A stretch of DNA of 49,320 nucleotides from Corallococcus llansteffanensis (GTDB lineage Bacteria; Myxococcota; Myxococcia; Myxococcales; Myxococcaceae), in the NCBI RefSeq assembly GCF_003612055.1, contig NZ_RAWB01000009.1, positions 1-49,320 on the forward strand, read 5' to 3'. Both the position numbers and the translations under genes were made by a program. This document shows, piece by piece, positions 32,253 to 49,320 of the stretch. The number at the start of each line of letters is the position of its first letter. The first letter of the stretch is position 1. Below the pieces are notes generated by a model. It was not told where the DNA came from. It ran no database searches and saw only the letters and a program-made list of their open reading frames with translations.

Positions 32253-33338
32253 CTACGGCAGGCAGAGGTGGGCGCCGTTCACCGGGCCGTAGGGGTTGGG
32301 CGGCTCGAAGGTCGACGGGCGGATCTGCAGGCCCGCGAAGGTGATGACGCCCGGGACGATGGGGGCGTTGATGGGGTCGAACTTCCACGGCCGACGGTTG
32401 GCCGCGTCCGTGGTGTCGTCGCGCACGGTGAAGCGCACGCCCGGGGCCTTGGGGCCGGACGCGGGCTGCGTGACGACGATGATGCCCAGGCCGCTGGTGG
32501 GCGAGCCCGCCTGCACGATGAAGCCGCGCGGCGACTGGAGGCCCGGGGGCAGGCCGGGGGCACCGGGCGGCTGCCACGCGACGTTGAACACCTGGCCGGA
32601 GGTGGCCTCGATGGTGGTGCCCGGCGCCGGGGCGCGCAGCATGGGGAAGCCCGGCTGGAAGAGCCAGAAGACGTTGACGCCGTGGAACTTCGTGGGGTCC
32701 ACGAAGTCCAGCGCCGTGGTGGGCGTGCCCGTGGCCGTCAGGTAGCGCGCGACGGCGTCCAGGATGCCGTTGTCACCGATGGCGAGCGACTCCTGGAGCA
32801 CGCACATGCTGTGGTTCGTCGCGATGGGCCGCAGCGTCACCGTGGGCAGGTAGCGGCCCACGGGCGGGATGGGCGGCAGCGTCGGCGGCGTGCCCGGGGG
32901 CTGCGTGGTGGGCAGCGAACCGCCGCCCGCGTTCAGCGAGAAGAACGGCGGCGAGGCGCGGCTGGGCACGGAGGGCGACACCCAGAAGCCGTTGGCCGCC
33001 GCGGCGACGGGCGCGACCGCCGGCTTGCCCAGCACCGGATCCAGCATGGTGACCTGGGCGTTCTGGGTGACCGAGCGCAGGAAGAGCGGGTTGATCTCGG
33101 AGATGATGGGGGTGATGGGGCTCGCGGGCCCCCCGTTCGTGATCCAGCTGAAGAAGAACGCCTCCGGATCCCAGGCGAAGCCGGACACGCGCGTGGTGAG
33201 CACCGCCAGGTCCGTATCCTGGAACTCCGGCGTGTTCACGATGGGCGTGCCCACCACTTCCGTGGACGGGTTGGATTCGCAGCCGGCTCCGACAGCCAGC
33301 GCACTCAGGACGGACACCAGACGCAGTGAGCGGTTCAT
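32253..33338 (-). CDS. Hypothetical lipoprotein paired with a multihaem cytochrome
   Basis: A 361-residue protein with a lipoprotein signal (LSALAVGAGC, Cys at residue 20). The mature part shows no family I know. It has a Pro/Gly/Thr-rich central segment (about 135-165, PTTQPPGTPPTLPPIPPVG). Two Cys stand far apart: one in SMCVLQES and one in the C-terminal GAHLCLP. No CxxCH haem motif is present. Its gene begins 15 bases after the stop of the five-haem cytochrome gene, with GGGAGG-like sequence upstream, so the two proteins are made together and may form a complex on the outer membrane. The product could be a structural or electron-transfer partner; this is inference from position only. Confidence 0.75.
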   Translation of the reverse strand: MNRSLRLVSVLSALAVGAGCESNPSTEVVGTPIVNTPEFQDTDLAVLTTRVSGFAWDPEAFFFSWITNGGPASPITPIISEINPLFLRSVTQNAQVTMLDPVLGKPAVAPVAAAANGFWVSPSVPSRASPPFFSLNAGGGSLPTTQPPGTPPTLPPIPPVGRYLPTVTLRPIATNHSMCVLQESLAIGDNGILDAVARYLTATGTPTTALDFVDPTKFHGVNVFWLFQPGFPMLRAPAPGTTIEATSGQVFNVAWQPPGAPGLPPGLQSPRGFIVQAGSPTSGLGIIVVTQPASGPKAPGVRFTVRDDTTDAANRRPWKFDPINAPIVPGVITFAGLQIRPSTFEPPNPYGPVNGAHLCLP

Positions 33339-33353
33339 GGCGGGAGGTCTCGG

Positions 33354-35279: not shown

Positions 35280-35410
35280 GTCGGGCACGGGTAGCAAACG
35301 CGGGGGACCAGGAGCCGACTTCTAGCACCCGTGTCCAGCCGTGACAATTACCGGCCCCCAACCCTTGACATTGCCCGCTCCGGACGCCTCGCGTACCGTG
35401 GCAATCCGCC

Positions 35411-35857
35411 ATGATCTACTACCTGCTGAAGGGCCTCCACCTGCTCGCGATGGGTGTTTGGCTCGGTGCGTCCATCACCTCCCCTCTCGACATCCTGCGC
35501 ACGCTCGCCCGGGGCCGGCCGTACGTGGACCTCATCCCTGAACAGGTGGCGCGGGCGGACAAGATCATGATCCCCGCCGCCGCCCTGACCCTCCTGACGG
35601 GCCTGGGGCTGATGCAGACGACCCAGGGCTTCGTCACGGCGCCGTGGCGCTTCTGGGCCGGGTTTGGACTGACCGTGGTGCTGGCCCTCATCGGGAAGCT
35701 GGGGTTGGACCCCACCAAGAAGCAGCTCGCCGTGGCGGTCCAGGGCTCGGGCGAGGCCGCCCTCGTGGGCAACCTGCGCGGCCGGTTCGTCAGCCTCGTC
35801 ACCGCCTGGCACGTGGGGTTCCTGCTGATCTTCGTCCTGATGATCTACCCGTTCTAG
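35411..35857 (+). CDS. Small membrane protein, DUF2269/CopD-like
   Basis: A 148-residue inner-membrane protein with four hydrophobic segments (about 3-25, 50-68, 78-98, 126-146). The first has the form LKGLHLLAMGVWLGASI, where a His and a Trp sit one helix turn apart as in CopD- and DUF2269-type proteins, some of which bind haem b or copper. A second His is in the last helix (TAWHVGF). The role is not known. It reads toward the fatty acyl-AMP ligase gene, which begins 55 bases after its stop, so the two may be co-transcribed. Confidence 0.72.
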   Translation: MIYYLLKGLHLLAMGVWLGASITSPLDILRTLARGRPYVDLIPEQVARADKIMIPAAALTLLTGLGLMQTTQGFVTAPWRFWAGFGLTVVLALIGKLGLDPTKKQLAVAVQGSGEAALVGNLRGRFVSLVTAWHVGFLLIFVLMIYPF

Positions 35858-35912
35858 GTTTCACCGGGGGGCTGGGACGCCTTCACCGCGCAACTTGGTA
35901 AGCTGGCGGGCC

Positions 35913-37655
35913 ATGGCCCTTCTGCTGGAGTCCCCCAACCTTGTCGCCCTGCTGCGAGATCGCCGGGCACTGACGCCGGACCACCCGCTCTTCACCTTCC
36001 TGGTGGATGGCGAGGAGGCAGGCAGCTACACCTCCGCGGACCTGGACACCTGGTGTCGCCGGGTGGGGGCCGCCCTGCAGCCCACCCACCCCCGGGGGGG
36101 CCGGGCGCTGCTGCTGTTCCCGCCCGGGCTGGACTTCCTGGCGGGCTTCCTGGGGGCCATGTACGGCGGCCTGGTGGCGGTGCCGACGTATCCGCCCAAC
36201 CCCATGCGCCTGCAGCAGACGCTGCCGCGCTTCCGGGCCATCGTCCAGGACGCGAGCCCCAGCGTCATCCTCACCACCAGCTTCCTGCGGGAGATGATGG
36301 AGTCCATCATCGACCAGGAGGCGCCGGAGCTGCGGCGCATCCCGTGGGTGTGCATCGACGCGCTGCCCGAGGGGAGCGAGGACGCGTGGACGGATCCGAA
36401 GCTCGACCCGTGGGAGACGGCGTTCATCCAGTACACGTCGGGGTCCACGGGCATCCCCAAGGGCGTCGTCATCACGCACCGCAACGTCATCGCGAACGGG
36501 CGGCTGGAGGTGGTGGCCTTCACGCCCTTCAGCGGGCGGCCGGTGAACGTCAGCTGGCTGCCGATGTTCCACGACATGGGCCTGATGTTCGCGCTGCACA
36601 GCATGGTGGTGGACGCGCACTTCGTCTTCATGTCCCCGCTGGACTTCCTGCAGCGGCCCATGCGCTGGCTCCAGGCGCTGACGAAGTACCGGGCGGAGAT
36701 GACCGTGGCGCCCAACTTCGCCTTCGAGCTGTGCCTGCGCCGGGTGGATGAGAAGAAGCGCGCGGAGCTGGATCTGTCGAACCTGCGGATGCTGCTCAAC
36801 GGCGCGGAGCCCATCCGCCCCCACACGCTGGATCGCTTCAACGCCTTCTTCGCGCCCGTGGGCCTGCGGCCCACCGCCTTCCTCACCTGCTACGGGCTGG
36901 CGGAGACGACCCTGATGGTGAGCACGCAGCTGCGCAACACGCCCTTCCAGGAGATCAGCGTGGACGCGGAGTCGATGCGCCTGCGCAAGCTGGTGGAGGT
37001 CCCCGCCGGGACGCTCCAGGCGCAGCGCGTGGTGGGCTACGGGCGCTCGTGGGTGGACCGGCTGCTCATCGTGGATCCGGAGACGCGGGAGCCCCTGCCG
37101 CCCCGGGCCGTGGGCGAGCTCTGGGTCCAGGGCGCGCAGGTGGCGAACGGCTACTGGCAGCGCCCCGAGGAGACGCAGGCGGCCTTCGGCGCGCGGCTCG
37201 CCAACGGTGACGGGCCCTTCCTGCGCACCGGCGACATGGGGTGCCTGGACGGCGAACAGCTCTACCTGCTGGGGCGCCTGAAGGAGCTCATCATCATCCG
37301 CGGGCGCAACCTCTACCCGACCGACCTGGAGCAGGTGGTGGAAGCAGCGCACCCGCTGGTGCGCCGGGGCTGCTGCGCCGCGTTCGCCATGGAGGAGAAC
37401 GGCGAGGAGCGGCTGGGCATCGCGTTCGAGCTGGAGCGCACCCAGGCGGAGGAGCTGCCGCCAGAGGCCCTGCGTCAGCAGCTCGCGGCGCTGGTGGACA
37501 CCGTCCGTCAGGCGATCGCCGAGAACTTCGACGTGCAGGCCCACACCGTGGCCGTCCTGCCCACGGGCGGCATGCCCAAGACGTCCAGCGGCAAGCTGCG
37601 GCGGCGCGCCTGCAACGAAGGCCTGCGCGACGGCACCCTGCCCGTCCTGGGCTGA
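35913..37655 (+). CDS. Fatty acyl-AMP ligase (FAAL)
   Basis: A 580-residue adenylating enzyme that activates a fatty acid with ATP and passes it to an acyl carrier protein rather than CoA. The ATP-binding loop is YTSGSTGIPKG. The family-specific stretches are ALLLFPPGLDFLAGFLGAMY, VPTYPPNPMRLQQTLPRF, SWLPMFHDMGLMF, SPLDFLQRPMRWLQALTKYR and CYGLAETTLMVS, all of FAAL and not FACL type. The catalytic Lys is K561 in TSSGKLRRRAC. FAALs normally sit beside a PKS, NRPS or ACP gene. Here none is on the same strand, but the convergent operon holds an ACP-containing fusion enzyme. The ATG at 35913 is internal to a frame starting at 35895; it opens the conserved N-terminus. Confidence 0.93.
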   Translation: MALLLESPNLVALLRDRRALTPDHPLFTFLVDGEEAGSYTSADLDTWCRRVGAALQPTHPRGGRALLLFPPGLDFLAGFLGAMYGGLVAVPTYPPNPMRLQQTLPRFRAIVQDASPSVILTTSFLREMMESIIDQEAPELRRIPWVCIDALPEGSEDAWTDPKLDPWETAFIQYTSGSTGIPKGVVITHRNVIANGRLEVVAFTPFSGRPVNVSWLPMFHDMGLMFALHSMVVDAHFVFMSPLDFLQRPMRWLQALTKYRAEMTVAPNFAFELCLRRVDEKKRAELDLSNLRMLLNGAEPIRPHTLDRFNAFFAPVGLRPTAFLTCYGLAETTLMVSTQLRNTPFQEISVDAESMRLRKLVEVPAGTLQAQRVVGYGRSWVDRLLIVDPETREPLPPRAVGELWVQGAQVANGYWQRPEETQAAFGARLANGDGPFLRTGDMGCLDGEQLYLLGRLKELIIIRGRNLYPTDLEQVVEAAHPLVRRGCCAAFAMEENGEERLGIAFELERTQAEELPPEALRQQLAALVDTVRQAIAENFDVQAHTVAVLPTGGMPKTSSGKLRRRACNEGLRDGTLPVLG

Positions 37656-37668
37656 AAGCGGCCTTCCT

Positions 37669-37696
37669 GCCGGGCGCGGCGGTGCGAGCGCCCGGC
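37669..37696. terminator. Bidirectional hairpin terminator
   Basis: Perfect 9-bp stem GCCGGGCGC / GCGCCCGGC with a 10-base loop, between the convergent stops of the FAAL gene (37655) and the last gene of the long minus-strand operon (37703). Confidence 0.75.
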
Positions 37697-37702
37697 GGTG
37701 GC

Positions 37703-39697
37703 CTAGAAGGACGCTTCGAGCAGGCCTTCCACGCGGGAGTTGTCGCGGTAGCTGCCGAAGAAGCTGTTCTTGTCCCCCCGGAGGATGGCGCCGCCCACGC
37801 GGGCGCGCAGCACGTCCGAGAAGCTGAACTCCACCTCCGGCAGCACGAGGACGTCATACCGGTTGAGCGCGGTGGCGGCCGTCAGCATCGCGGTCCACCG
37901 CCGCCCGGCCTGCCACTCCACCCGGCCCCACAGCGCGCGCTCCAGCGGGTAGCGCAGGCGGCGCACGAAGTCGTCGCGCAGCGGTGCGCCCACGCCTCGC
38001 GTCTGCGCGAACTCCAGGAAGAAGCGCAGCTGGTGGTCGCCGAGGAACTCGGGCGTCTGGTAGTCGCCGCCCAGCACGTAGGACAGGAAGCGGTCCTCCG
38101 GCTCCTCCGGACGGGTGCGCAGGGTGTGGATGAGGGCGGCCTCGGCCGCGACGCGCAGGCCGCCAAAGGTCCGCTCCACGTCCAGCGTGGTGACGCGCTG
38201 ACGGCGGTACGACAGCGCCAGCGTGACGTCCGCGGACGTGGGCGGATCCGCGACCTGCACGGAGCTCGTCAGCGTGGGCAGGTGGTCAATCAGGTACGCC
38301 TGGCCCAGCGACACGTCCGTGCCCGCGAGCGAGAAGGCCAGCCGCCCTGCGAGCTGGGCGTTCTTCGGGGTGGGCGACCCCATGGACTCGCTGCGCACCT
38401 GGTAGCGCAGGGGAATGGGCGAAGGGCCTCCGCCCACCGAGCCCACCACCCACGGCGAGCTGCTCTGGAGCGTGCCGTCGTCCGCCACGCCGGTGAAGGA
38501 CGGCAGGAGGTGCGCTTCCGGCACGGGCAGGTAGTAGACCTCCGCGAGGAACGACTCCAGCACCAGCCCCGCGCGCGCCATCCAGGCACCGCGCTTCTCC
38601 GTGCGCAGCACGTCGCGGTAGTCCACCGGGTTGAGCACGTCCGTGGGGTTCGTCAGCGTCGCGGAGCCCCACGTCACCAACTGGCGGCCCGCCGTCAGTC
38701 GCAGGTGGTCGCCCTTGAGGGTGACGAACAGCTCGTCCACGTCGAAGCGGTCGCGGCTGCTGTCCGCGAAGTCGCGGCGCGCCACCAGCGTGCCCGCGGC
38801 ATGGCCCGCGCCGAAGGTCACTTCGCTCTTGAGCGACAGGTCCACGCTCTGCCGCCCCACCGTCTTGCCCTCCGCGGGCGACACCGGGACGAAGAAGCTC
38901 TGCACGCGCAGCTTGCCGCTCAACCCCAGCCCCTTCACCCCCAGCGTCTCGGTGGGGGCGGAGGTCGGCGTTGGCGTGGACGGCTCTTCCGTCACCGGCG
39001 TGAAGCCCGACACCTCACCCCAGGCCGGATCTTCGGACAGCGCGGGGGAGGCGGGCTCCTGCGAGGCCTCCAAGGACGGTGCGGGCTCCGCGGCCGAGGC
39101 CACGGGCTCCCCGGAGGACGGCGACACGGCCTCGGGCGGAGCCGTGTTGCTGGACGCCTCCACCGTGGGCTTCTGCTCCAGCGCCGCGGCGGGCTCCGGC
39201 GTCGGTGGCGTCGCGCTCGTCACGGTCGGCGCGGACACGGCGGGCGGCGCCACGAAGACGAGCGACTGGACGGCCCGCCCCTTGAGGCGGGCCGTGAGGC
39301 CCCGCTTCGCGTACACCAGTGCGCCGCCCTTGACGCGCACCCAGCAGGGCGCGGGCTCCGACGGGGTGGCGCAGGCGGGCCCGTACTCGCGCTCCAGCCG
39401 CTGCTGCGTCCAGCCCACGGGCTGCACCTGGAGGCGGCGCACGTGCTGCGCCTCCAGGGTGACCTCCAGCGAGCGGGCGCCTTCCGGGGCGCGCTTGCCC
39501 ACGAAGCGCTGCACCTCGCCGTGGCGGGTCTTCCACCGCGACGACGGCGGCCCCAGCCGCGAGCGCAGCGCTTCCGCGTCCAGGCCGGGCGTCACCTCCG
39601 CCCAGCCCGCCGCGAGCGCGGTCGGCGTCCACAGGCCGAGGAGCAGCGCTCCCACGGCCCCCCATGCGCCCGCGAGCCGACGGCGTCCCAAGCTCAC
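37703..39697 (-). CDS. Outer membrane beta-barrel protein, DUF1302-like, with N-terminal domain and long linker
   Basis: A 664-residue exported protein. A signal peptide ends near ALA|AG (residue 30). A small domain follows (about 31-125: LRSRLGPPSSRWKTRHGEVQ, YGPACATPSEPAPCWVRV with a probable disulphide). Residues about 130-235 are a Pro/Ser/Thr/Glu-rich linker. From about 240 to the end is a beta-barrel with GRQLVTWGSATLTNPTDVLNP, the typical DUF1302 segment, and a closing Phe. DUF1302 proteins accompany MMPL transporters and LolA-like proteins in many Proteobacteria. The GTG start overlaps the stop of the LolA-like gene by 4 bases (GTGA), so translation is coupled. Likely the outer-membrane exit of the transport system. 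Confidence 0.78.
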   Translation of the reverse strand: MSLGRRRLAGAWGAVGALLLGLWTPTALAAGWAEVTPGLDAEALRSRLGPPSSRWKTRHGEVQRFVGKRAPEGARSLEVTLEAQHVRRLQVQPVGWTQQRLEREYGPACATPSEPAPCWVRVKGGALVYAKRGLTARLKGRAVQSLVFVAPPAVSAPTVTSATPPTPEPAAALEQKPTVEASSNTAPPEAVSPSSGEPVASAAEPAPSLEASQEPASPALSEDPAWGEVSGFTPVTEEPSTPTPTSAPTETLGVKGLGLSGKLRVQSFFVPVSPAEGKTVGRQSVDLSLKSEVTFGAGHAAGTLVARRDFADSSRDRFDVDELFVTLKGDHLRLTAGRQLVTWGSATLTNPTDVLNPVDYRDVLRTEKRGAWMARAGLVLESFLAEVYYLPVPEAHLLPSFTGVADDGTLQSSSPWVVGSVGGGPSPIPLRYQVRSESMGSPTPKNAQLAGRLAFSLAGTDVSLGQAYLIDHLPTLTSSVQVADPPTSADVTLALSYRRQRVTTLDVERTFGGLRVAAEAALIHTLRTRPEEPEDRFLSYVLGGDYQTPEFLGDHQLRFFLEFAQTRGVGAPLRDDFVRRLRYPLERALWGRVEWQAGRRWTAMLTAATALNRYDVLVLPEVEFSFSDVLRARVGGAILRGDKNSFFGSYRDNSRVEGLLEASF

Positions 39698-40512
39698 GGC
39701 CCCGCGAGCGCGTGACGGCTGAAGGTGTCCGCGGGCAGCGTGGGATTCACCTGCCGCGAGTCCACCGTGACGACCGTGCGGTGCTTGCGCTTCAAGTCGA
39801 CGATGGTCATCACGTCCGTGCGCCACGCCGTGTCGCTGACCTTCGTGAGCTTCGAGCCCTCCAGCGACTTCACCGGCTGCAGCTGCTTGTCGAAGTAGCG
39901 CATGCGGACCTGCATCAGGTTGTCCTTGCGCAGCCACACCTGCACCTTGCCGTAGGGGGAGTCCTTGGCCACCGACTCGCGCGCGGGCTTGCCCTCCACC
40001 ACGTGGCAGTCCGCGCCGCCCAGCTTCTCCGTGCCGGTGAGCGTGTACGCGAAGTCATCCACGTCCCGCTGCTTCAGGTCCTCGTACCAGAGGTCGGAGT
40101 TGACGAAGCGGTCCTTGAGGTCCGACGCGCCCAGCTGGCGCGTCTTGCGGAACGCGGGCAGGTACAGCCACTGCTCGGCCTCCGGCTCGCCCACCGGGTC
40201 CACCGACAGGAGGGTGGTGCCCTTCACGTCCGCGGGCGCGTCGAAGCGCATCCGCAGCTTCTCCGCCCCATCCGCGTCCGTCTGGTAGAGCGACTCCAGG
40301 GACAGCTTGCGCGGCGTGCCGCCCTGCTCCTCCAGCGACAGCGTGATGTGCAGCTGTTCGGACTTGAGCCGGTGCAGCTTGTCGCTCTTGCGCATCAGGT
40401 CCTGGGCGCTGTCCGCCGCGGCCCCGATACCCGGGGTCCCCAGCACGAGCGCCAGCGCGCTTCCAAGGAGCAGGCGGCGCGTGGCCGTGCCCCGGTTTTG
40501 CGACCGTTCCAT
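39694..40512 (-). CDS. LolA-like outer membrane lipoprotein-sorting protein (PF17131 type)
   Basis: A 272-residue periplasmic protein with a twin-Arg-like start (ATRRLLLGSALALVLG) and signal cleavage near AAA|DS (about residue 34). The mature part is one open half-barrel of the LolA/LppX fold, able to shield an acyl chain. Family stretches are QLHITLSLEEQGG, LYLPAFRKTRQLGASDLKDRF and VNSDLWYEDL. Members of this subfamily sit beside MMPL/RND permeases and are thought to carry lipid between the membranes. Here the permease gene lies 94 bases upstream and the barrel protein overlaps its end. The start at 40512 has GGAGG 8 bases before it. Confidence 0.88.
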   Translation of the reverse strand: MERSQNRGTATRRLLLGSALALVLGTPGIGAAADSAQDLMRKSDKLHRLKSEQLHITLSLEEQGGTPRKLSLESLYQTDADGAEKLRMRFDAPADVKGTTLLSVDPVGEPEAEQWLYLPAFRKTRQLGASDLKDRFVNSDLWYEDLKQRDVDDFAYTLTGTEKLGGADCHVVEGKPARESVAKDSPYGKVQVWLRKDNLMQVRMRYFDKQLQPVKSLEGSKLTKVSDTAWRTDVMTIVDLKRKHRTVVTVDSRQVNPTLPADTFSRHALAGP

Positions 40513-40606
40513 GGTGAGTCCTCCGGATTGCGGAATGGAAACCGCGAGTTGCTGCGTCAGACGCGCGAGGAGGCCGCGAATTCCAGGGTCCGCGGCAGGA
40601 TCGCTC

Positions 40607-43006
40607 TCAGGCACCGGTCCCGGGCAGCGACGGCACCGTGTCCCCCGCCGGGTGGCTGGCAGGGGTGCGGACCGGAACGCCCAGCCGCGTGCGGGTGGCG
40701 GCCAGCAGCGGCGGCAGCACCAGCATCTCCGACACCATGCCCAGCAGGATGGCCAGCGCCGTGAGCAGGCCGAACCAGGACACCAGCGGGAACTGCGAGA
40801 GCATCAGCACGCCGAAGCCCATGGTGAAGACGAGCGTGGAGATGGACACGCCCGCGCCCTTCACGAGCATCGTCTCGCGCAGCGCGCGCTCCCGGTCGTC
40901 GTGCTCCGCGAGCCGCGAGCGGAAGTACTCCAGGAAGTGGATGGTGTCGTCCACCACGATGCCCAGCGCGATGGAGGCGATCATCGACGTGGCCTCGTTG
41001 AGCGGCACGCCGATCCACCCCATCACGCCCAGGATGACGATGACGGGCCAGATGTTGGACGGGATGCTGAAGAGGCCCGCGCGCACCGAGCGCAGCACGA
41101 TGAAGATGGGCCCGAAGATGAGGATGAACGCCAGCCCCAGGCTGCCCATCTGGCTCTGCACCAGCCGGTCGATGGTGTTCACGAGCATCCGGTTGTCGCC
41201 CGTGGCCACCGCCGCGTAGCCGTCCGACGCCGGGAAGTGCTTCACGAGGTACGCGTCCACCTGGTCGAAGATGACGTTCTGCTTCGCGACGCTGTGCTCG
41301 TTGTAGCGCACCACCACGCGCGCCCAGCCGCGCGACGGGTCCAGGTACTCCGCGAAGCTGTCGTCGCCGTTGAGCAGCAAGAGCTGCGCGGTCTGCTCGC
41401 GCGTCTCCGGCAGCCGGTACTCCTTCGGATCATCCCCGAAGAAGCCGCGGTGCATCAGCTTGATGTAGTCCGCGGGCGACGTGACGACCTTCGCGTTGAG
41501 GTCCTTGCGCAGGAACTCCTCCAGCGCCTCCACGCGCTGGAGCGCCTCCGGCTCCAGGAAGTGCCCCTCCTTGTCGTGCTTGAGGGAGATGACGAGCGCG
41601 CTGGCGCCGCCCAGGCGGTTGTCCACCAGCTCCGTGGCCGCGCGCACCGGCGTCGCGTGCCCCAGGTTCTCCTGGAGGTTGGAGTCCGTGTAGATGCGCG
41701 GGATGCCCGCGGCGCCCAGCACCAGCAGGACGATGCTGACCATGAGGATGGGCAGCGGACGGCGCTGCACCGCGGCCGTGTAGCGGCCCACCCACTTCGT
41801 GAAGAAGGGCGACACGCCCAGGCTGCCGGGCGCCACCCAGAAGGACGGCGGCTTCCACAGCGCCGCCAGCGTCACCATGGTCATCGTGGTCAGGAAGACG
41901 GCCACGATGGCGAGCGCGGACGTGATGCCGAAGTCGCGCAGCGCCGGCATGTTGCTCACCGCGATGGAGCCGAAGCCGATGATGGTGGTGAACTCACACA
42001 TCGTCGCGGGGATGAGCAGCTCCGCCAGCGTGGACTCCACGACCTCCCGGCCGCCCTGCTCCTTCGCGTGGTGCGCCAGCTCCGACAGGAAGTGGATGAG
42101 CAGCGCCGTGGACAGCACCAGCACCACCGGCGCGACGATGACGGACCAGTTCGTCATCGAGCGGCCCAAAAGCGGGAACATGGCCAGGCCCGCCACCAGC
42201 GCCACCATCATGTTGACGAACGCCAGCACCGCGCCCGCGAGCCGGCGGAGGCACACGAGCAGCAGCACGAACATGGAGACCATCAGCGCCGGGATGAAGA
42301 CGTTCAGGTCGCGCTGCATGAACGCGCCCAGCTCCGCGAGGATGGTGGGCGTCCCCGTCACGTAGAAGGCCTTCACGCCGCCGGTGGCCTTCGCCTTCTC
42401 CACCAGGGCCTGCACCTTCGCCACGGTGGCGGTGTTGTCGTCGTCCGACAGGTCCGGGATGAGCCGCACCACGACCATGGCCAGCTTGGGGTCCTGCGGC
42501 GACAGCAGCCCTTCGGAGATGAGCGGGTTGAAGAGGGCCCGCTCACGGATGTGCGCGAGCGCCGCCGCGTCCTGCGGCACCGGCTGCGGCACGAGCGGCT
42601 CCGCGCGGAAGCTCAGGTCCGCGCCCACCACGTCCTTCACGTGCGTGAGGCTGTCCACGCGCGCGACGGGGCGGACCTCCGCGCCGTCCGGGTGCTTGAT
42701 GGTGAGCCCCTGCAGGTCCTCCGACAGCCCGTACACCGTCTCCAGCGCGGGCCGCGAGAAGACGTCATCCGCCTCGTAGGCGAGCACGATGAGGTTGTCG
42801 CCCACGAAGCGTTCAACCACGGTGTCCAGCACCCGCTGCTCCGGCAACGTGCGGTCCGTCAGCGCCTCGAAGCCGGCCTGCATCTTCAGGCGCGGCAGGG
42901 CGCTGGCGCTCACCGCGATGATGGCCAACAAGACGAAGAGCAGCGTCTTGGGGTGTGTCACCATCCACGCGGCGACGCGTTCGACTCGACTGCGGGGGGT
43001 CATCAT
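40607..43006 (-). CDS. MMPL/RND superfamily transporter
   Basis: A 799-residue inner-membrane permease with about 12 membrane segments in two halves. Each half has a large periplasmic loop between its first and second segments (about 38-215 and 435-610). The start RVERVAAWMVTHPKTLLFVLLAIIAVSASALPRL is of the COG1033 RND type. Residues about 200-400 and 610-780 are hydrophobic helices with family stretches GRSMTNWSVIVAPVVLVLST and ASMIASIALGIVVDDTIHFLE. The acidic pair in the latter corresponds to the proton-relay site. Substrates of such proteins are lipids and hopanoids (for example HpnN) or lipopeptides. Two adjacent ATG codons start the frame; neither has a strong ribosome site. A cytochrome gene ends 48 bases upstream on the same strand. 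Confidence 0.92.
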   Translation of the reverse strand: MMTPRSRVERVAAWMVTHPKTLLFVLLAIIAVSASALPRLKMQAGFEALTDRTLPEQRVLDTVVERFVGDNLIVLAYEADDVFSRPALETVYGLSEDLQGLTIKHPDGAEVRPVARVDSLTHVKDVVGADLSFRAEPLVPQPVPQDAAALAHIRERALFNPLISEGLLSPQDPKLAMVVVRLIPDLSDDDNTATVAKVQALVEKAKATGGVKAFYVTGTPTILAELGAFMQRDLNVFIPALMVSMFVLLLVCLRRLAGAVLAFVNMMVALVAGLAMFPLLGRSMTNWSVIVAPVVLVLSTALLIHFLSELAHHAKEQGGREVVESTLAELLIPATMCEFTTIIGFGSIAVSNMPALRDFGITSALAIVAVFLTTMTMVTLAALWKPPSFWVAPGSLGVSPFFTKWVGRYTAAVQRRPLPILMVSIVLLVLGAAGIPRIYTDSNLQENLGHATPVRAATELVDNRLGGASALVISLKHDKEGHFLEPEALQRVEALEEFLRKDLNAKVVTSPADYIKLMHRGFFGDDPKEYRLPETREQTAQLLLLNGDDSFAEYLDPSRGWARVVVRYNEHSVAKQNVIFDQVDAYLVKHFPASDGYAAVATGDNRMLVNTIDRLVQSQMGSLGLAFILIFGPIFIVLRSVRAGLFSIPSNIWPVIVILGVMGWIGVPLNEATSMIASIALGIVVDDTIHFLEYFRSRLAEHDDRERALRETMLVKGAGVSISTLVFTMGFGVLMLSQFPLVSWFGLLTALAILLGMVSEMLVLPPLLAATRTRLGVPVRTPASHPAGDTVPSLPGTGA

Positions 43007-43054
43007 GGGGGAGTCCAGAGCAGGGGGGCCGCGTTATACCAGAACGTCCTGGAT

Positions 43055-44257
43055 CTAGGGGATCAGGGCGGCCTGCTCTTGCACCCAGCCGGCGAGCGAG
43101 AGGGCCTGCGTTTCGTCCAGCAGCTCGCTGTAGGTGGGCATCTGCGTGCCGGGCGCGATGGACTCCGGGTTGCGGATCCACTTCGCCACTTCCACCGTGG
43201 GCTTCGCGCGCGACTGCTTGAGCATGGCGCGGAACTTGGCGCCCTCCTGGTGGCACACCGCGCAGCCCAGGCTGGTGAAGAGCTGCTCGGGGGTGCCCTG
43301 CGCGGCCTTCACGCGCGGGACGCTGCCCTGGGGAATCTCATGGTCGATGGCGGGCAGGCTTTCGAAGAAGCGGAAGAGCGCCTCCGCCTCCACGTCGTCC
43401 ATGCCGCGGAAGCGGCGCATGGGCGGGCGCATCACGTACCCATTGGGCGTGATGCCTTCACGCATGGCGCGGGTGAACTGCGGCTGCGTCCATCCCTTGA
43501 GCCCCGTTTCGTGGGGGGTGAGGTTGCTGGAGTAGACGACGCTCGTGGGGGTCTCCGAGTACTTGAAGCCGCCGGAGAAGGCCTTGTCGCCGTCCACCTT
43601 CGACGGGTTGAGGCCCGGCGTGTGGCAGCCCGCGCACTCATAGACGTTGTGCGCCAGGTAGCGGCCGTACTCCACCGTCGCGCCCCTGGGGGGCGCCTTC
43701 AGGCCGGACGCGGGACGGTCGAGCGGCACCTTGCCCAGCATCACCGCCATCACGACCTTGCCCAGCGGGCCCGTCTCCGACTTCGGCTGCGCCTGCGGAT
43801 CCGCGGCGAAGAGCGCGTCGTCGGAGCGCATGAAGCCCATCACCGCGGACAGGTCCGCGTCATCCAGGCCGTAGTGGCCCATGATGAGGACGCGCCGGCC
43901 GTCGCGCTTGATGCCGTAGCGGATGGCGCGCGCCAGCTCCCCGTCGCTCATCGCGCCGATGCCCGCCTCGCGGTGCGCGGTGATGTTGGCCGAGTAGAAC
44001 TTCCCGAGGAACGACGGCACGCCCTTCATGGCGCCGCCCGTCACCCGGCCGCTGCTGTCCTGCCGGTGGCAGTCCTCGCAGACGGCGCGGAAGATGGCGC
44101 GCCCGTGCTCGACCTGGGTCGGGTCGGTGGCGGCGACCAGCGGCGGCAGCGGCGCGTCCACGACCTCGGACACCTTCGAGCCGCCCCAGAAGCCCATGCC
44201 CACCACCGCCAGCAGCAGCAGCGCCAGGAGTGCGCCCAGCGTCTTCAGAACCTTCAT
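43055..44257 (-). CDS. Membrane-anchored tri-haem cytochrome c
   Basis: A 400-residue protein with an N-terminal membrane anchor (LGALLALLLLAVVGMGFW) and three haem-binding sites facing the periplasm: C60-ED-C63-H64, C208-AG-C211-H212 and C332-AV-C335-H336. Each domain has a likely axial Met, for example TQMPTY near the C-terminus. The three-domain arrangement is that of cytochrome subunits of membrane dehydrogenases (alcohol, gluconate), which pass electrons to the respiratory chain. No dehydrogenase gene is adjacent; instead it lies between the lipid-synthesis genes and the MMPL transporter of the same strand. It may serve an oxidative step on the product. The start at 44257 opens the anchor. 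Confidence 0.88.
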   Translation of the reverse strand: MKVLKTLGALLALLLLAVVGMGFWGGSKVSEVVDAPLPPLVAATDPTQVEHGRAIFRAVCEDCHRQDSSGRVTGGAMKGVPSFLGKFYSANITAHREAGIGAMSDGELARAIRYGIKRDGRRVLIMGHYGLDDADLSAVMGFMRSDDALFAADPQAQPKSETGPLGKVVMAVMLGKVPLDRPASGLKAPPRGATVEYGRYLAHNVYECAGCHTPGLNPSKVDGDKAFSGGFKYSETPTSVVYSSNLTPHETGLKGWTQPQFTRAMREGITPNGYVMRPPMRRFRGMDDVEAEALFRFFESLPAIDHEIPQGSVPRVKAAQGTPEQLFTSLGCAVCHQEGAKFRAMLKQSRAKPTVEVAKWIRNPESIAPGTQMPTYSELLDETQALSLAGWVQEQAALIP

Positions 44258-44313
44258 CGCCAAGGGAGACCTTCCTCTTTCATCGGGCAGCATGCCCACG
44301 CGGGGGTGTCGTC

Positions 44314-44718
44314 TTATCCCAGGTCGCGCTGGAACGCGTAGGCGTCGTCCAGCAGCAACGAGGACTCCAGGATGTGGCCTTCACGGACCCGGGTCATCAA
44401 GCAACCCCCCAGCTCCACCGGGGCACGGCCGGGCGACGCAGGGGCCGTCACCCGGAAGCGTGCGTAGACATGCTCGGGGCCCGGGACGACGTGGGCCACC
44501 TCCAGGCGAGCGCCCCGGGCGGAGAGCAGCGCCGCGAAGTCGCGCACGAAGCGCCCCACGTGCTCCGGGCCCCGGTGCTCGCCCGCCAGGGGCACGTCGC
44601 CCCGGAAGCGGAACACGGAGGCCTCGTCCAGGTAGCCGGAGAGCGTGGCGGCATCCGCGCCCGCCAGCGCCTCCAGGCTGCGGCGGGCGACCTCCACCTG
44701 CGACTGGAGCGCGTTCAT
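44314..44718 (-). CDS. SnoaL-like (NTF2-fold) protein
   Basis: A 134-residue, single-domain protein of the SnoaL/NTF2 cone fold. The core F-R-G-D-V-P-L-A-G-E-H-R-G-P-E-H is clearly related to FPGRSPLAGAHKGKDAV in the C-terminal domain of the fusion enzyme just upstream, so the two arose by duplication. Such domains cyclise, dehydrate or merely bind polyketide- or lipid-like substrates. The catalytic residues cannot be assigned. The ATG overlaps the stop of the fusion gene (ATGA) and has GGAGGA about 5 bases before it, giving coupled translation. Likely acts on or binds the product of the fusion enzyme. Confidence 0.82.
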   Translation of the reverse strand: MNALQSQVEVARRSLEALAGADAATLSGYLDEASVFRFRGDVPLAGEHRGPEHVGRFVRDFAALLSARGARLEVAHVVPGPEHVYARFRVTAPASPGRAPVELGGCLMTRVREGHILESSLLLDDAYAFQRDLG

Positions 44719-46766
44719 CGCGTTCCTCCGACGGCCGCCTCGTGCGCTTCGATGAAGCGCGCGCCCTGGGTGACGAACTCGTCGAAGGCGCGCTGGTTGT
44801 CGACGAACCAGTGGGCCTCCACCACCTTGCCGTCCTTGAGGGTGAGCACCTCGCAGATGTCCGCCGACAGGCGCAGGTCCGTGCCCGGCAGGTGCGCGGT
44901 GTTGCTCCAGTAGAGGACCGCGTGGTTCGCGTCCGCGAGCAGCTCCTTGAGCCGCACGTTGAGCGTGCCCACCGTGTAGCGGAACGCGTTGACGAAGAAG
45001 TCCAGCACCGCGTCCTTGCCCTTGTGCGCGCCCGCGAGCGGGCTGCGGCCCGGGAAGTGGTAGACGACGTCCGGGGCGAGCTGCCGCGACAGCGCCGGCA
45101 GGTCCAACGTCACGAAGCCGTCGAAGCCCTCGCGCGCGAGCGTCATGTTGGGGTGCTCGTCCGGCGAGGCCTTGAGCGTCATCACCTCGAAGCTGCCGGA
45201 GAAGTCGCGCTTGAGCCGCGAAAGCTCCCGGGCCACGGTCTCGAGCGTGTGGCGGATCTGCTCTTCGGTGTGAAGCGAGGAGATGAAGAAGCGCAGCCGC
45301 GCGCCGTCGTTGGCCACCGCGGGGTAGATCATGGGCGCCACGTTGATGCCCTGGTCCATCAGGATGCCCGACAGGCGGATGGCCTGGAGCGTGTCCCCCA
45401 CGATGACCGGCACCACGCCGGAGCCGGCCGACGTGCCGGTGTCCAGCCCGTACTCCCGCGCGAGCGACAGGAAGAGCTTCACGCGTTCGTGCAGCCGCGT
45501 CACCCGCTCCGGCTCGCGCTGCATGACCTGGATGGCCGCGAGCGCCGCCGCCGCGTTCGACGGGGGCATGCCCACGCTGTAGATGAAGCCCGGCGACGTG
45601 TAGCGCAGGTACTCCACCAGCTTGCGCGAGCCCGCGATGTAGCCGCCGCAGCTCGCCAGCGACTTGCTGAGCGTGCCCATCCACAGGTCCACGTCCCGGC
45701 CATCCACGCCGAAGTGCTCCCCCACCCCGCGCCCCGTCTTGCCGAGCACGCCCAGCGAGTGCGCCTCGTCCACCATCAGGAAGGCGCGGTGGCGCTTCTT
45801 CAGGGCCACGAGCGCGGCCAGGTCCGGCACGTCGCCGTCCGCGCTGTACACGCCCTCCACGACGATGAGCACGTTGGCGTGGTCCCCGCGCCGGCGCGTC
45901 AAGAGCGCGTCCAGCCCCGCCAGGTCCTGATGCCGGAACGGCAGCCGCGTGGCGCCGGACAGCTCCGCGCCCCCCAGCACGCTGTCGTGGATGAGCTCGT
46001 CGTAGACGATGAGGTCCTGCGGGCCGAACATGTGCCCCAGCGTCGTCACGTTGGTGGCGTGGCCGCCCACGTAGACGAGCGCGTCCTCCGCGCCCACCAG
46101 CTTCGCGAGCGCCGCCTCCAGCTCCACGTGCACCGGCCGCTCGCCGGAGATGAGGCGGCTGGCCGACACGGACGTGCCATAGCGGTCGATGGCGTCCTTC
46201 GCCGCCGCCGACACGTCCGGGTGGCCGGACAGGCCCAGGTAGTTGTAGCTGGCGAAGTTGACGACCTCGCGCTGGCCGATAATGGCGCGGTCGCCGTTGA
46301 TGCCCTCGCACCGGCGGAAGTACGGGTTGCCCACGCCCGGCACGTCCAAGAGCCGCAGGCGCCGGCTGTTGTTCTTCACGTCGTCGTCGTCCGCGAAGCT
46401 GGGGGCCGCGCTCGTCGTCTGCGGCTCCACGCGCACGCGGTTGGTCATGACGTTGGCGCTGCCCTGCGCCGCCGCCTGGCCCAGGTGCTGGGCGAGCTGC
46501 GAGATGGTGGGGTAGTCCCACACGAGCGTGCTCGCGAGCCGGCGCTCCAGCAGGTCCTCCAGGTCGCCCGACAGCGTCACCGCCTCCACGGAGTCCAGGC
46601 CATAGCGCGTGAGCGGCACCTTGACGTCGATCTCCTGGGCCGAGCGCTGCATCAGCGTCGCGATGCGCTGGACGAGCCAGCTCTCGATCTGCTGCGCGCT
46701 TCCCCCGGGCCGGAGCTCGGGGGTGGCGCCATCCTGGGCGGAAACGGAAGTGTCTTGGGCGTTCAC
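44715..46766 (-). CDS. ACP / alpha-oxoamine synthase (KAPA-synthase, serine palmitoyltransferase-like) / SnoaL-like fusion
   Basis: A 683-residue three-domain enzyme. Residues about 25-97 form an acyl carrier protein with the phosphopantetheine Ser59 in YGLDSVEAV. Residues about 150-515 are a PLP-dependent alpha-oxoamine synthase: FASYNYLGLSGHP, VDEAHSLGVLG (D333, H336) and the Schiff-base Lys K368 in GTLSKSLASCGGY. Residues about 540-670 are SnoaL-like. Such enzymes condense an acyl thioester with an amino acid and release CO2, giving an alpha-amino ketone; serine gives the 3-keto-sphinganine type. Carrying its own ACP, it probably takes the acyl group from that domain. GTG start with GAGGGA upstream. 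Operon with an AMP ligase and an acyl-CoA dehydrogenase. Which amino acid is used cannot be read from the sequence. Confidence 0.92.
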   Translation of the reverse strand: MNAQDTSVSAQDGATPELRPGGSAQQIESWLVQRIATLMQRSAQEIDVKVPLTRYGLDSVEAVTLSGDLEDLLERRLASTLVWDYPTISQLAQHLGQAAAQGSANVMTNRVRVEPQTTSAAPSFADDDDVKNNSRRLRLLDVPGVGNPYFRRCEGINGDRAIIGQREVVNFASYNYLGLSGHPDVSAAAKDAIDRYGTSVSASRLISGERPVHVELEAALAKLVGAEDALVYVGGHATNVTTLGHMFGPQDLIVYDELIHDSVLGGAELSGATRLPFRHQDLAGLDALLTRRRGDHANVLIVVEGVYSADGDVPDLAALVALKKRHRAFLMVDEAHSLGVLGKTGRGVGEHFGVDGRDVDLWMGTLSKSLASCGGYIAGSRKLVEYLRYTSPGFIYSVGMPPSNAAAALAAIQVMQREPERVTRLHERVKLFLSLAREYGLDTGTSAGSGVVPVIVGDTLQAIRLSGILMDQGINVAPMIYPAVANDGARLRFFISSLHTEEQIRHTLETVARELSRLKRDFSGSFEVMTLKASPDEHPNMTLAREGFDGFVTLDLPALSRQLAPDVVYHFPGRSPLAGAHKGKDAVLDFFVNAFRYTVGTLNVRLKELLADANHAVLYWSNTAHLPGTDLRLSADICEVLTLKDGKVVEAHWFVDNQRAFDEFVTQGARFIEAHEAAVGGTR

Positions 46767-46828
46767 GGTGCGTCCCTCGGGGGAAAGGAACTGCGGGGGT
46801 GCTGCAGGGGGAGAAACAGGCTGCCCGG

Positions 46829-48589
46829 TCAGGCCACCTGGAGAGGCTGAAGGGAGAAGAGCTGGCGCGCGTCGTGGCGGCGGACGAGCTCGGAGGTCAG
46901 GGAGTCATAGAGGCCCGGCGGCGGCTCGGGGGCGTCCAGCGACCCGGCCTCGCGCAGCAGGCGCGACAGGGCCAGGATGAGCCAGGCCCCCGCTTCGAAG
47001 AAGCCACCCTGCGTCCGGGCGTTGCGCACCCACAGGTGCAGGCAGGACGCGGCGCTGAAGAGCACCGCGTAGCGCCGCGCCAGGTCGAAGAGCTCCGGCG
47101 ACGTGGCGAAGGCCCGCCCGGCGCGCGTCGCCAGCTGGAGCACCGCCTGCGCGTGCGCGCCCTGCTCCTTGATGAGGCACCGCGCCAGCGCCAGCAGCAC
47201 GCCCCGGTGGGACTCGTCCAGGTGCCCCACCTGGCCCTCCAGTCGCTGCACGGCGTCCGGCAGCCCCAGGAAGACCTCGTCGGGGCCGCGCGCCACCAGG
47301 TCCAGGCGCTGCGGATCCAGGGGCGGCACGCGCTGGGACAGCGTGAACAGGTTCTCCAGCCGCGCGTCCAGGTCCGGCACGCCGGTGCCCTTCAGGGTGC
47401 CCTGGCAGAGCGCGCGGAGCTGGAGCCCCAGCGAGTGCAGGTTCACCGGCGCGCTGCCGTCGAAGATGCCGATGAGCAGGTTGTCCCGGTAGAAGCGCTG
47501 GAAGGCGCCCCAGTCGTGCCGGTCCCGCATGTAGAAGCGCGCGCCCTGCACGGCGGTGAGCCGCTGGAAGGCCCGCTCCGACAGCGACGGCACGAAGTAC
47601 TTCGCGATGGCGGACCAGGCCGCGAAGCGCTCGGGGGCCACGTGCACGCCGCGCAGGACGGTCTGCGCCACCGCGTCGGCGACGAGCCCGTCCAGGAACG
47701 AATCCGCGCACGCGCGCGACACGCTGGGGATGGCGAACACCGTGTCGCCGTAGAGCCTGCGGCCGCGCGCCAGGTTCAGCGTGGTGCGAAGCCCCGTGTC
47801 CGCCGCGCCCAGCGCCAGGCCGGAGCACAGCGCGCGCGTGATGTGCAGCGCCTTGAGCGCCAGCTCCAGGCCGCCGCCCTCCGGTCCCAGCCGGTCGTCG
47901 TCGCGCGCGAGGCAGTCCGTGAAGCGCACGCCGCTGATGTCACAGCCGCGCACGCCCACCGTGGGCACGCGCGGGAGCGGCGCGTGGGTGCCGGGCTCCA
48001 GCTGCGCCTTGTCCAGCATGAACAGCGACAGGCCCCGGGGGCCGCCCAAAGGGTCGGTGCGCGCGAGCACCATGTAGCCCTCGCCCCGGGTGGCGCGGTT
48101 GATGGGCCACTTCTCACCGGTGATGCGGTAGCCCCCCGCGACGCGACGCGCCGTCGTCGCGCCCGACAACAAATCCGCGCCGTGCGCCTCCTCCGAGTAC
48201 GCGAGGCACGGGCTGTGGCCCGCGCGCAGGAACGCCGCCTGCCGCCGCTTCTGCGCGTCGGTGCCGCCCAGCCACGTGAGCGTGGACCAGGCCAGCGTGC
48301 TGGAGGACACCGTCACCGTCAGGTCCCGCCGCGCGAGCAGGCGCGCGAGCAGCAGGAGCTGCTCGTAGGACTCGAAGCGCCCCCCGTACTCCGTGGGGAT
48401 GTAGAACTCCGGGAGCCCCAGCGCGTGCAGCGACTGGATGGCCTCCTGGGGGAAGCGCTCCTCCTCGTCCAGCCGCGCGCCGCGCGCCAGCGACAGGGGG
48501 CTCTCCTCGTCCCACGGGCTGCCCAGCCTGCGCTCCAGCTCTTCCGCCCATTGCTGCGTGGAGGGGGGTGGAATGGGATGGCTCGGCAC
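46829..48589 (-). CDS. Acyl-CoA dehydrogenase family flavoprotein
   Basis: A 586-residue protein with the acyl-CoA dehydrogenase fold: helical N-domain (about 20-125), beta-domain with FAD-contact stretches YSEEAHGADLLSG and GYRITGEKWPINRA, a C-terminal helical domain, and RFYRDNLLIGIFDGSAPVNL, the adenine-binding segment. After residue about 420 it extends by some 160 residues, longer than the typical 380-400. The usual catalytic Glu cannot be placed with confidence. In an operon with an acyl ligase and an ACP-oxoamine synthase it may put a double bond into the acyl chain on a carrier protein before or after condensation. GTG at 48589 has GGAGGAG 9 bases upstream; the frame continues to 48685 only through the end of the ligase gene. 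Confidence 0.88.
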   Translation of the reverse strand: MPSHPIPPPSTQQWAEELERRLGSPWDEESPLSLARGARLDEEERFPQEAIQSLHALGLPEFYIPTEYGGRFESYEQLLLLARLLARRDLTVTVSSSTLAWSTLTWLGGTDAQKRRQAAFLRAGHSPCLAYSEEAHGADLLSGATTARRVAGGYRITGEKWPINRATRGEGYMVLARTDPLGGPRGLSLFMLDKAQLEPGTHAPLPRVPTVGVRGCDISGVRFTDCLARDDDRLGPEGGGLELALKALHITRALCSGLALGAADTGLRTTLNLARGRRLYGDTVFAIPSVSRACADSFLDGLVADAVAQTVLRGVHVAPERFAAWSAIAKYFVPSLSERAFQRLTAVQGARFYMRDRHDWGAFQRFYRDNLLIGIFDGSAPVNLHSLGLQLRALCQGTLKGTGVPDLDARLENLFTLSQRVPPLDPQRLDLVARGPDEVFLGLPDAVQRLEGQVGHLDESHRGVLLALARCLIKEQGAHAQAVLQLATRAGRAFATSPELFDLARRYAVLFSAASCLHLWVRNARTQGGFFEAGAWLILALSRLLREAGSLDAPEPPPGLYDSLTSELVRRHDARQLFSLQPLQVA

Positions 48590-48623
48590 GGGGTGGCTCC
48601 TCCGGGCTGCGTGGGGCTGACGG

Positions 48624-49320
48624 TCAGCCGCCGGTCGCGGTGTCGTCCGCGTACAGCGCCGAGATGCGTTCGGCGTACGCGGCATGGATGGAATTGCGCA
48701 GCGGTTTGCCGGTGGCCGTGAGCTGGCCGTTGGCCGGGGTGAAGGGCGCGTCCGCGCGCACCCAGCGCGACACCCGGGCGTAGTCCGGCAGCGTCGGGTT
48801 CACGGCCGCCAGCACCCGGTCCACGTCCGCGTCCGCCGCGCCGGGCACCGGGAAGATGACCGCGGTGTTGAAGGGCTTCGCCTCACCGAAGACGACCACC
48901 TGACCGATGACGCGGTCCGTGGACACCTCGCGCTCCACCCACTCCGGCGACACGTTCCGGCCGAAGGCGGTGATGAAGATGTTCTTCTTGCGCCCGGTGA
49001 TGTGCAGGTAGCCGTCCGCGTCCAGCTGGGCCAGGTCCCCGGTGGCGTACATTCCGCCCTCGATGCCGGAGACGACGTCGCCGGTGTAGCCGGAGAAGAG
49101 GCTCGCGCCGCCCAGGAGCAGCTCGCCGTCCGGCGCGAACTGCACCCGTACGTGCGGCAGCACCTTGCCCGCGCTCCCGGGCCGATTGCCCGACGGCGAG
49201 TTGAGCGTCACCACGGACGCCATCTCCGTCAGCCCATAGCCTTCGAAGGCCGGCAGCCCCACGCGGTGCGCGCGCTCCACGAGCCCCGCGGACACCGCCG
49301 CGCCACCCACGCCGATGAAG
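48624..49320 (-). CDS. AMP-dependent acyl ligase (5' end beyond window)
   Basis: The C-terminal 231 codons of an adenylating enzyme (acyl-CoA or acyl-ACP synthetase). Visible motifs: EGYGLTEMASV (A5), MYATGDLAQLDADGYLHITGRKKN (A7-A8) with FGRNVSPEWVE, the pattern of long-chain fatty acid ligases, and the catalytic Lys in LTATGKPLRNSI (A10). About 300 N-terminal residues are missing. It ends 34 bases before the acyl-CoA dehydrogenase start and is the first visible gene of the minus-strand operon. Probably charges the acyl group that reaches the ACP domain of the oxoamine synthase. Whether it loads CoA or ACP cannot be told from this part. Confidence 0.88.
   Translation of the reverse strand, partial: FIGVGGAAVSAGLVERAHRVGLPAFEGYGLTEMASVVTLNSPSGNRPGSAGKVLPHVRVQFAPDGELLLGGASLFSGYTGDVVSGIEGGMYATGDLAQLDADGYLHITGRKKNIFITAFGRNVSPEWVEREVSTDRVIGQVVVFGEAKPFNTAVIFPVPGAADADVDRVLAAVNPTLPDYARVSRWVRADAPFTPANGQLTATGKPLRNSIHAAYAERISALYADDTATGG

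Follow-up and report, generated by a model that had tools for sequence, protein, structure and literature searches.

We examined a window of 49,320 bp, which is the entire contig NZ_RAWB01000009.1 (C1244) of the 10.5 Mb draft genome of Corallococcus llansteffanensis (G000), and within it a locus where genes for an alpha-oxoamine synthase (AOS) fused to an acyl carrier protein (ACP) lie on the same strand as genes for an envelope transporter set. Eight minus-strand genes occupy the stretch between 37703 and the contig end at 49320 (Table 1). The initial annotation, made from the letters of this DNA, had described eight genes on one strand, in this order, with short gaps and two 4-base overlaps, and the sequence junctions together with Pfam bear this out: the overlaps read ATGA (44715-44718) and GTGA (39694-39697), and the gaps are 34 bases between the ligase and acyl-CoA dehydrogenase (ACAD) genes, 62 between ACAD and AOS, about 50 between SnoaL and cytochrome c, 48 between cytochrome c and MMPL, and 94 between MMPL and LolA_like. 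The minus-strand frames were favored by codon-position GC for most of the genes, the larger ones included; the SnoaL and LolA-like genes were missed by this measure. Compared with Corallococcus sp. CA053C, a near-identical sister of the window's strain (G002), dN/dS was 0.10–0.20 for all genes except the barrel gene (0.31), and there were zero internal stops in any frame; these are thus real genes under selection and not chance open reading frames (ORFs). The comparison with CA053C was also used to correct the start of the ACAD gene. The ligase gene that the contig end cuts is whole in CA053C (509 aa; L018:1393-2922), where a cupin gene comes before it and, further upstream, the edge of a kinase gene of PEGA type (identified by eye); the 5' part of the window's copy was not found in the draft genome.

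Table 1. Genes and segments of the locus, in positions of the window.
Feature	Position	Strand	Assignment and basis
AMP-forming acyl ligase (MenE/FadD-like)	48624..49320	-	Pfam AMP-binding + AMP-binding_C_3; 3' 231 codons only, rest cut by contig end
Acyl-CoA dehydrogenase-type flavoenzyme (ACAD), 586 aa	46829..48589	-	Family linked to fatty acyl-AMP ligase (FAAL); C-terminal extension; FDGS active-site motif
ACP-AOS-SnoaL_2 three-domain protein, 683 aa	44715..46766	-	Pfam, NCBIfam, PDB relatives
Stand-alone SnoaL_2 protein, 134 aa	44314..44718	-	Pfam; ATGA overlap with AOS gene
Membrane-anchored triheme cytochrome c, 402 aa	43055..44263	-	Pfam cytochrome c; resident Corallococcus gene, probably outside the lipid system
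MMPL / HAE3-type resistance-nodulation-division (RND) inner-membrane transporter, 799 aa	40607..43006	-	Pfam MMPL
LolA_like (PF17131) periplasmic lipid carrier, ~272 aa	39694..40512	-	Pfam; signal peptide
Predicted outer-membrane barrel, 664 aa	37703..39697	-	Weakly DUF1302-like; C-terminal Phe; GTGA overlap with LolA_like gene
FAAL, 586 aa	35895..37655	+	Convergent with barrel gene; outside the span of the initial annotation, on segment 1
Segment 1 (FAAL, barrel, LolA_like, MMPL)	35856..43049		Between 148-aa membrane-protein gene and cytochrome c gene; absent from Corallococcus genomes G015 and G005
Segment 2 (SnoaL, ACP-AOS-SnoaL, ACAD, ligase)	44298..49320		Occupies place of the thioesterase/polyketide synthase (PKS)/nonribosomal peptide synthetase (NRPS) cluster of G015 and G005

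The three-domain protein unites PP-binding, Aminotran_1_2 and SnoaL_2 domains (Pfam), with the motif GLDS in its ACP and TLSKSLASCGG at the lysine that binds pyridoxal phosphate (PLP). PP-binding followed by Aminotran_1_2 in one chain likewise occurs in many Cyanobacteria and at the loci L042 and L179. Among the matches listed from 195 genomes of the phylum the C-terminal SnoaL domain was covered by the CA053C protein only, and CA053C was the sole carrier among the best 80 loci of a contig scan that took in the closest AOS relatives only. Pfam recovered the domain content that the initial annotation had listed, with four amendments: the AOS has this extra SnoaL domain, the ligase is only a fragment, a FAAL gene stands just beyond the annotated span, and the barrel match is weak (DUF1302, 19.3 bits, under the cut-off of 23.2). 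The AOS aligned over its full length, PLP-binding lysine included, with structures of serine palmitoyltransferase (SPT), the Sphingobacterium enzyme giving 239 bits and having the SPT-type SKSLAS motif in common with it. The three NCBIfam SPT models all scored below their cut-offs (329.7/640, 277.3/500 and 226.7/670 bits), by which canonical SPT identity was rejected, and a more SPT-like gene (510 bits) lies elsewhere in the genome, on contig C331. In a tree of AOS sequences, weakly supported and with long-branched paralogues, the nearest to the window AOS was a PKS-AOS of G051 with a FAAL-like neighbor, and the SPT-like paralogues did not group with it. A short-chain dehydrogenase/reductase (SDR) or NAD epimerase adjoins the AOS in some relatives; no 3-ketosphinganine reductase or ceramide N-acyltransferase domain was found in the scanned window genes or in CA053C up to the kinase gene. 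The label "sphingolipid" is not supported by these comparisons.

The FAAL aligned at full length with FAAL structures at 448 to 229 bits (7r7e, 448), compared to 118 bits for the best CoA ligase; the FAAL models of NCBIfam scored best with it, yet under their cut-offs. Judged by these scores it is a true FAAL. The ACAD has three Pfam domains. Its subfamily recurs in Oscillatoriales (L031, L049 and L052), where an AMP-ligase with a FAAL-like start (by eye), an ACAD, an ACP-AOS and an SDR stand in a row, the ACADs being 35–38% identical to that of the window (about 380–420 bits) and having the same FDGS motif and C-terminal extension. FAAL, ACP and AOS are fused into one chain in G177 and L042, such fusions occurring in Myxococcota and Deltaproteobacteria, and on contig C922 of the window's own genome NRPS genes lie together with genes for a FAAL-like ligase, two ACADs and an ACP that shares 55% identity with the ACP domain of the window. 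The Oscillatoriales gene rows, the fusions and the C922 ACP together place FAAL, ACAD and ACP-AOS in one pathway, and support their being a recognizable acyl-loading unit. Two further observations concern these relatives. The C922 locus (L098, with the ACP at the contig end) and its counterpart on contig C795 of G005 (L121) each combine two tandem ACADs with NRPS genes and a FAAL-like ligase, and look like loci for a lipopeptide whose fatty chain is desaturated twice; in G005 the FDGS motif has been lost from the second ACAD. The three Oscillatoriales loci are a candidate genetic basis, so far unreported, of the cyanobacterial sphingolipids discussed in PMC8895605.

On the transport side, the MMPL domains scored 95.2 bits (Pfam cut-off 20.5) and the HAE3 model TIGR00921 gave 168 bits, not reaching its cut-off of 351.9; by these matches the protein is in an HAE3-like branch. 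The LolA_like match was strong (161.7 bits, cut-off 30). For the barrel, a relative in L173 reached the DUF1302 cut-off (23.6/23.2), the beta moment z was 1.9, and an AlphaFold2 model, from an alignment of two sequences only, had a pLDDT of 29. MMPL matches at E ≤ 1e-90 were present in only 7 of the 195 phylum genomes, a count that takes in the window's genome and that of its sister. The initial annotation would have taken it as a refutation if transport and biosynthesis genes did not co-occur in relatives, and such a result was obtained: the closest full transport sets are without AOS genes, the MMPL homologue of G148, G091 and G005 standing beside homologues of LolA_like (48–52%) and barrel (37–39%) and with no AOS gene. 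What does stand beside this family is the gene for the N-acyl amino acid synthase FeeM, as a direct neighbor or within one cassette, in G148, G091, G005, G046 and a more distant locus of G193 (L175); that is, beside 5 of the 7 MMPL relatives examined, 3 of which also have LolA_like and barrel genes. FeeM was not found within the short DNA examined on two further MMPL contigs of G193 (L176, L180). The window MMPL is 44% identical to the MMPL of the FeeM-linked Myxococcaceae sets (L116, L173, L174). At L175:119-5928 the MMPL and FeeM genes are followed by a ThiF-nitroreductase fusion, which makes up the gene set for acyl-oxazolone (tyrazolone) synthesis plus an exporter; the acyl-oxazolone synthesis genes of M. 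tuberculosis lie beside mmpL9 (PMC10404671). Given its FeeM partners, an aminolipid exporter is the best interpretation of the MMPL family, which in the window looks to be paired with a different aminolipid synthase, the AOS.

The history of the site was read from G015 and G005. The flank at 33300-35855 has 87–88% DNA identity in both, and the match ends at 35855; there, in place of segment 1, are 60–79 bp and then a cytochrome c gene with 76–78% DNA identity to that of the window. Beyond it G015 has NRPS (condensation-adenylation-thiolation), PKS (ketosynthase-methyltransferase-ACP) and thioesterase genes and then a kinase gene, and the layout in G005 is the same. Relative to these genomes the window carries an extra 7.2-kb segment that flanks the cytochrome gene on one side, and on the other its AOS genes stand where those genomes have the PKS/NRPS genes; the locus is, from this alignment of species, a mosaic. 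The site of the AOS genes, holding thioesterase, PKS and NRPS genes in L142 (G015) and L143 (G005), appears to be one where biosynthetic clusters are swapped. The cytochrome c has exactly one homologue in each of 16/16 Corallococcus genomes, and at the Corallococcus loci inspected it is in or adjoins a multiheme-cytochrome unit; in G014 and G010 it is in one unit with homologues of the window genes at 32253-33338 and 33354-35297 (both minus strand), the latter encoding an OmcA/MtrC-like multiheme cytochrome and the former being its neighbor. The single homologue per genome and the multiheme unit argue that this gene is probably a resident and a bystander to the lipid system. The initial annotation had counted it as a member of an eight-gene system; it belongs to a different unit, and its being a tailoring enzyme of the pathway was rejected as the most likely reading on account of this context and of the homologue in every Corallococcus genome searched. 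A conserved order of the eight genes in myxobacteria was likewise not sustained: searches with P0006 and P0004 of 39 relatives and the 195 phylum genomes recovered the set from no genomes but the two sisters G000 and G002, and a conserved eight-gene operon was rejected. A scan of the locus gave no promoter-like sites, and fewer terminator-like sites than in shuffles. Between the cytochrome c and MMPL genes (42985-43075) there is a palindrome, CCAGGACGTTCTGG, then TATAAC, a possible operator or promoter.

AOS genes occur with other transport sets. In a deltaproteobacterial metagenome-assembled genome (L042:3335-12520, MGTE01000042.1) MlaA, MlaC, MMPL, a FAAL-ACP-AOS fusion and a radical SAM gene stand in a row on one strand, which would be a compact set for lipid synthesis and export. 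On contig C10 of G015 (L119:3-18359) PKS genes with two tandem AOS domains are found with a LolD-like ABC ATPase, an FtsX/MacB permease, a LolA_like protein, a 500-aa protein and an acyltransferase gene. The same type of ABC/FtsX/LolA_like/500-aa cassette adjoins ketosynthase clusters of further Myxococcaceae genomes (L212, L213, L214, L215), with no AOS match at those loci; at L216:8372-10426 a single ORF matches both the permease and the LolA_like protein of L119 and is a possible permease-carrier fusion. In Kibdelosporangium a PKS-AOS is followed by an MMPL.

Our best reading of the locus, to which we give a probability of roughly 0.5, is that it makes and exports a long-chain alpha-amino ketone lipid. 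It is based on domain content, gene order, the differences at the site between species and the partner genes of homologues, and from these we infer every reaction and substrate, co-transcription and the direction of transport. The FAAL, the MenE-like ligase, or both, would activate a fatty acid and attach it to the ACP domain of the ACP-AOS-SnoaL protein; the ACP-bound chain would be desaturated by the ACAD; and the PLP-dependent AOS domain would join the acyl-ACP to an amino acid with loss of CO2, releasing an alpha-amino ketone. Loading by a FAAL or ligase, desaturation by an ACAD and condensation by an AOS are the established chemistry of these families. The fused and stand-alone SnoaL domains, with the cupin of the sister strain, may then reshape the product, perhaps (as a guess) by enone ring closure. 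The MMPL/HAE3 pump would pull the product from the inner membrane, LolA_like would ferry it through the periplasm, and the barrel would insert or release it at the outer membrane. A fuller version is more tentative, and we put it short of even odds: that the single ACP-AOS-SnoaL enzyme makes and perhaps cyclizes the lipid, that the RND/LolA_like/barrel route of delivery to the outer membrane was taken from FeeM systems, and that AOS lipids gained unrelated exporters (RND + LolA_like, RND + MlaC/MlaA, ABC + LolA_like) in separate lineages. The initial annotation had proposed a sphingoid-like amino ketone that is made and then moved to the outer membrane; production and export gain from the acyl-loading unit, the FeeM-tied MMPL family and the other AOS-transport sets (L042, L119), and the sphingoid part is left unproven by the SPT scores and the missing reductase and N-acyltransferase.

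Several observations weigh against an exported amino ketone lipid. The gene combination is in two sister genomes only, and its two halves have an unrelated cytochrome gene between them and may stem from separate gains. The transporter trio is found elsewhere without AOS, and most of the 80 AOS loci are without such a transporter within the DNA examined, so that the pairing recurs without being general. The nearest DNA relatives of the window FAAL are other, numerous FAAL-like genes of Corallococcus and not AOS-linked FAALs, sequence gives the barrel assignment little support, and there is no ketone-reducing or N-acylating gene at the locus.

The main rival, which we consider somewhat unlikely, is that two unrelated units are neighbors, the transporter set exporting an N-acyl amino acid or other hydrophobe made elsewhere, or expelling toxic hydrophobes, and the AOS genes making an unrelated metabolite. 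FeeM, not AOS, is the partner of the closest trios, segments 1 and 2 flank a resident gene, the palindrome and TATAAC box could begin a separate transcript, and AmeABCD, with its HAE3 pump, DUF1302 and DUF1329 proteins, confers monoterpene tolerance (PMC6394551). Set against these, the two segments occur together, and only together, in two genomes; the FAAL, which is suited to an ACP, sits on the transporter side; and pairings of AOS genes with lipid transporters exist elsewhere. It is doubtful, and more so than the separation into two units, that the AOS product is a small cyclized alkaloid or pigment, assembled like a prodiginine (PigI/PigA/PigH) by ligase, flavin desaturase and ACP-AOS and tailored by SnoaL and cupin proteins. 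The ligase-ACAD-ACP-AOS gene logic is that of prodiginine loci and two SnoaL domains suggest cyclization; the ACAD does match RedW (60.6 bits) and PigA (52.6 bits), but far under the cut-offs of 650 and 500 bits, the FAAL and the FAAL-linked ACAD subfamily indicate a fatty chain, and a LolA_like carrier is better suited to a lipid. A genuine sphingolipid locus, where the AOS is an SPT and enzymes encoded elsewhere reduce and N-acylate its ketone product, is very improbable, since the whole-length alignment and SKSLAS motif held in common with the Sphingobacterium SPT, and the SDR or epimerase near some AOS relatives, are countered by the sub-cut-off SPT scores, the lack of a reductase and N-acyltransferase at the locus, the more SPT-like C331 gene and a place outside the SPT-like paralogues in the tree (weak, with long branches).

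If an amino ketone lipid is indeed made and exported here, then ACP-made amino ketones join the lipid classes exported by dedicated envelope machinery; the present locus, L042 and L173 would be compact gene sets from which the substrate of orphan HAE3/LolA_like/barrel exporters can be guessed and tested; and the site suggests that lipid synthases and exporters are perhaps swapped as modules at a single chromosomal position.

Among known systems, aryl polyene clusters have a LolA-like protein (ApeL), an RND pump (ApeM) and a LolB-like protein (ApeN) (PMC8253772). They resemble the window in making a lipid with an ACP and acyl-ACP synthetase and in having their own RND pump and LolA-like carrier, but build the chain with type II ketosynthases, have no AOS and use a LolB-like protein, whereas the window has AOS, ACAD and SnoaL proteins and a barrel. 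In AmeABCD monoterpene efflux an HAE3 pump is joined to DUF1329 and DUF1302 proteins (PMC6394551); its likeness to the window lies in the HAE3/MMPL pump, the periplasmic protein of the LolA superfamily and the outer-membrane protein, DUF1302 there and weakly DUF1302-like here. The neighbors, however, are catabolic there and biosynthetic in the window, where the YCF48-like AmeC is missing (there is no such gene between the three transport genes), the carrier belongs to PF17131 instead of being a full DUF1329 protein (39/23.1 bits), and the barrel stays under the DUF1302 cut-off, so that the four-part set is not reproduced. The FeeM-linked sets (L116, L173, L174) have homologous MMPL, LolA_like and barrel proteins with FeeM, not ACP-AOS, as partner. 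Bacterial SPT with a specialized ACP (AcpR) and acyl-ACP synthetase (PMC9386255) is likewise a PLP-dependent oxoamine synthase supplied by a dedicated ACP and acyl-activating enzyme, but there the ACP is separate and the SPT curated, in contrast to the fused ACP-AOS-SnoaL protein and its sub-cut-off SPT matches. In FAAL-ACP initiation of daptomycin-related lipopeptides (PMC9113097) a fatty acid is also activated as the AMP ester and put on an ACP; the chain then goes to an NRPS instead of an AOS. The Oscillatoriales loci combine AMP-ester activation onto an ACP with a linked acyl dehydrogenase, but have an SDR and an AOS without the SnoaL domain. Our literature search, thin on subscription journals, found no paper on the present locus or on FAAL-ACP-AOS genes with exporters, and to our knowledge ACP-AOS-SnoaL synthesis joined to MMPL/LolA_like/barrel export has not been described. 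The initial annotation, which knew of no ACP-fused enzyme with its own transporter set, is upheld as to this combination and not as to the transporter set, which aryl polyene clusters already possess; the pairing of lipid synthesis with export is known, and what is new in the present locus is the way in which known parts are combined.

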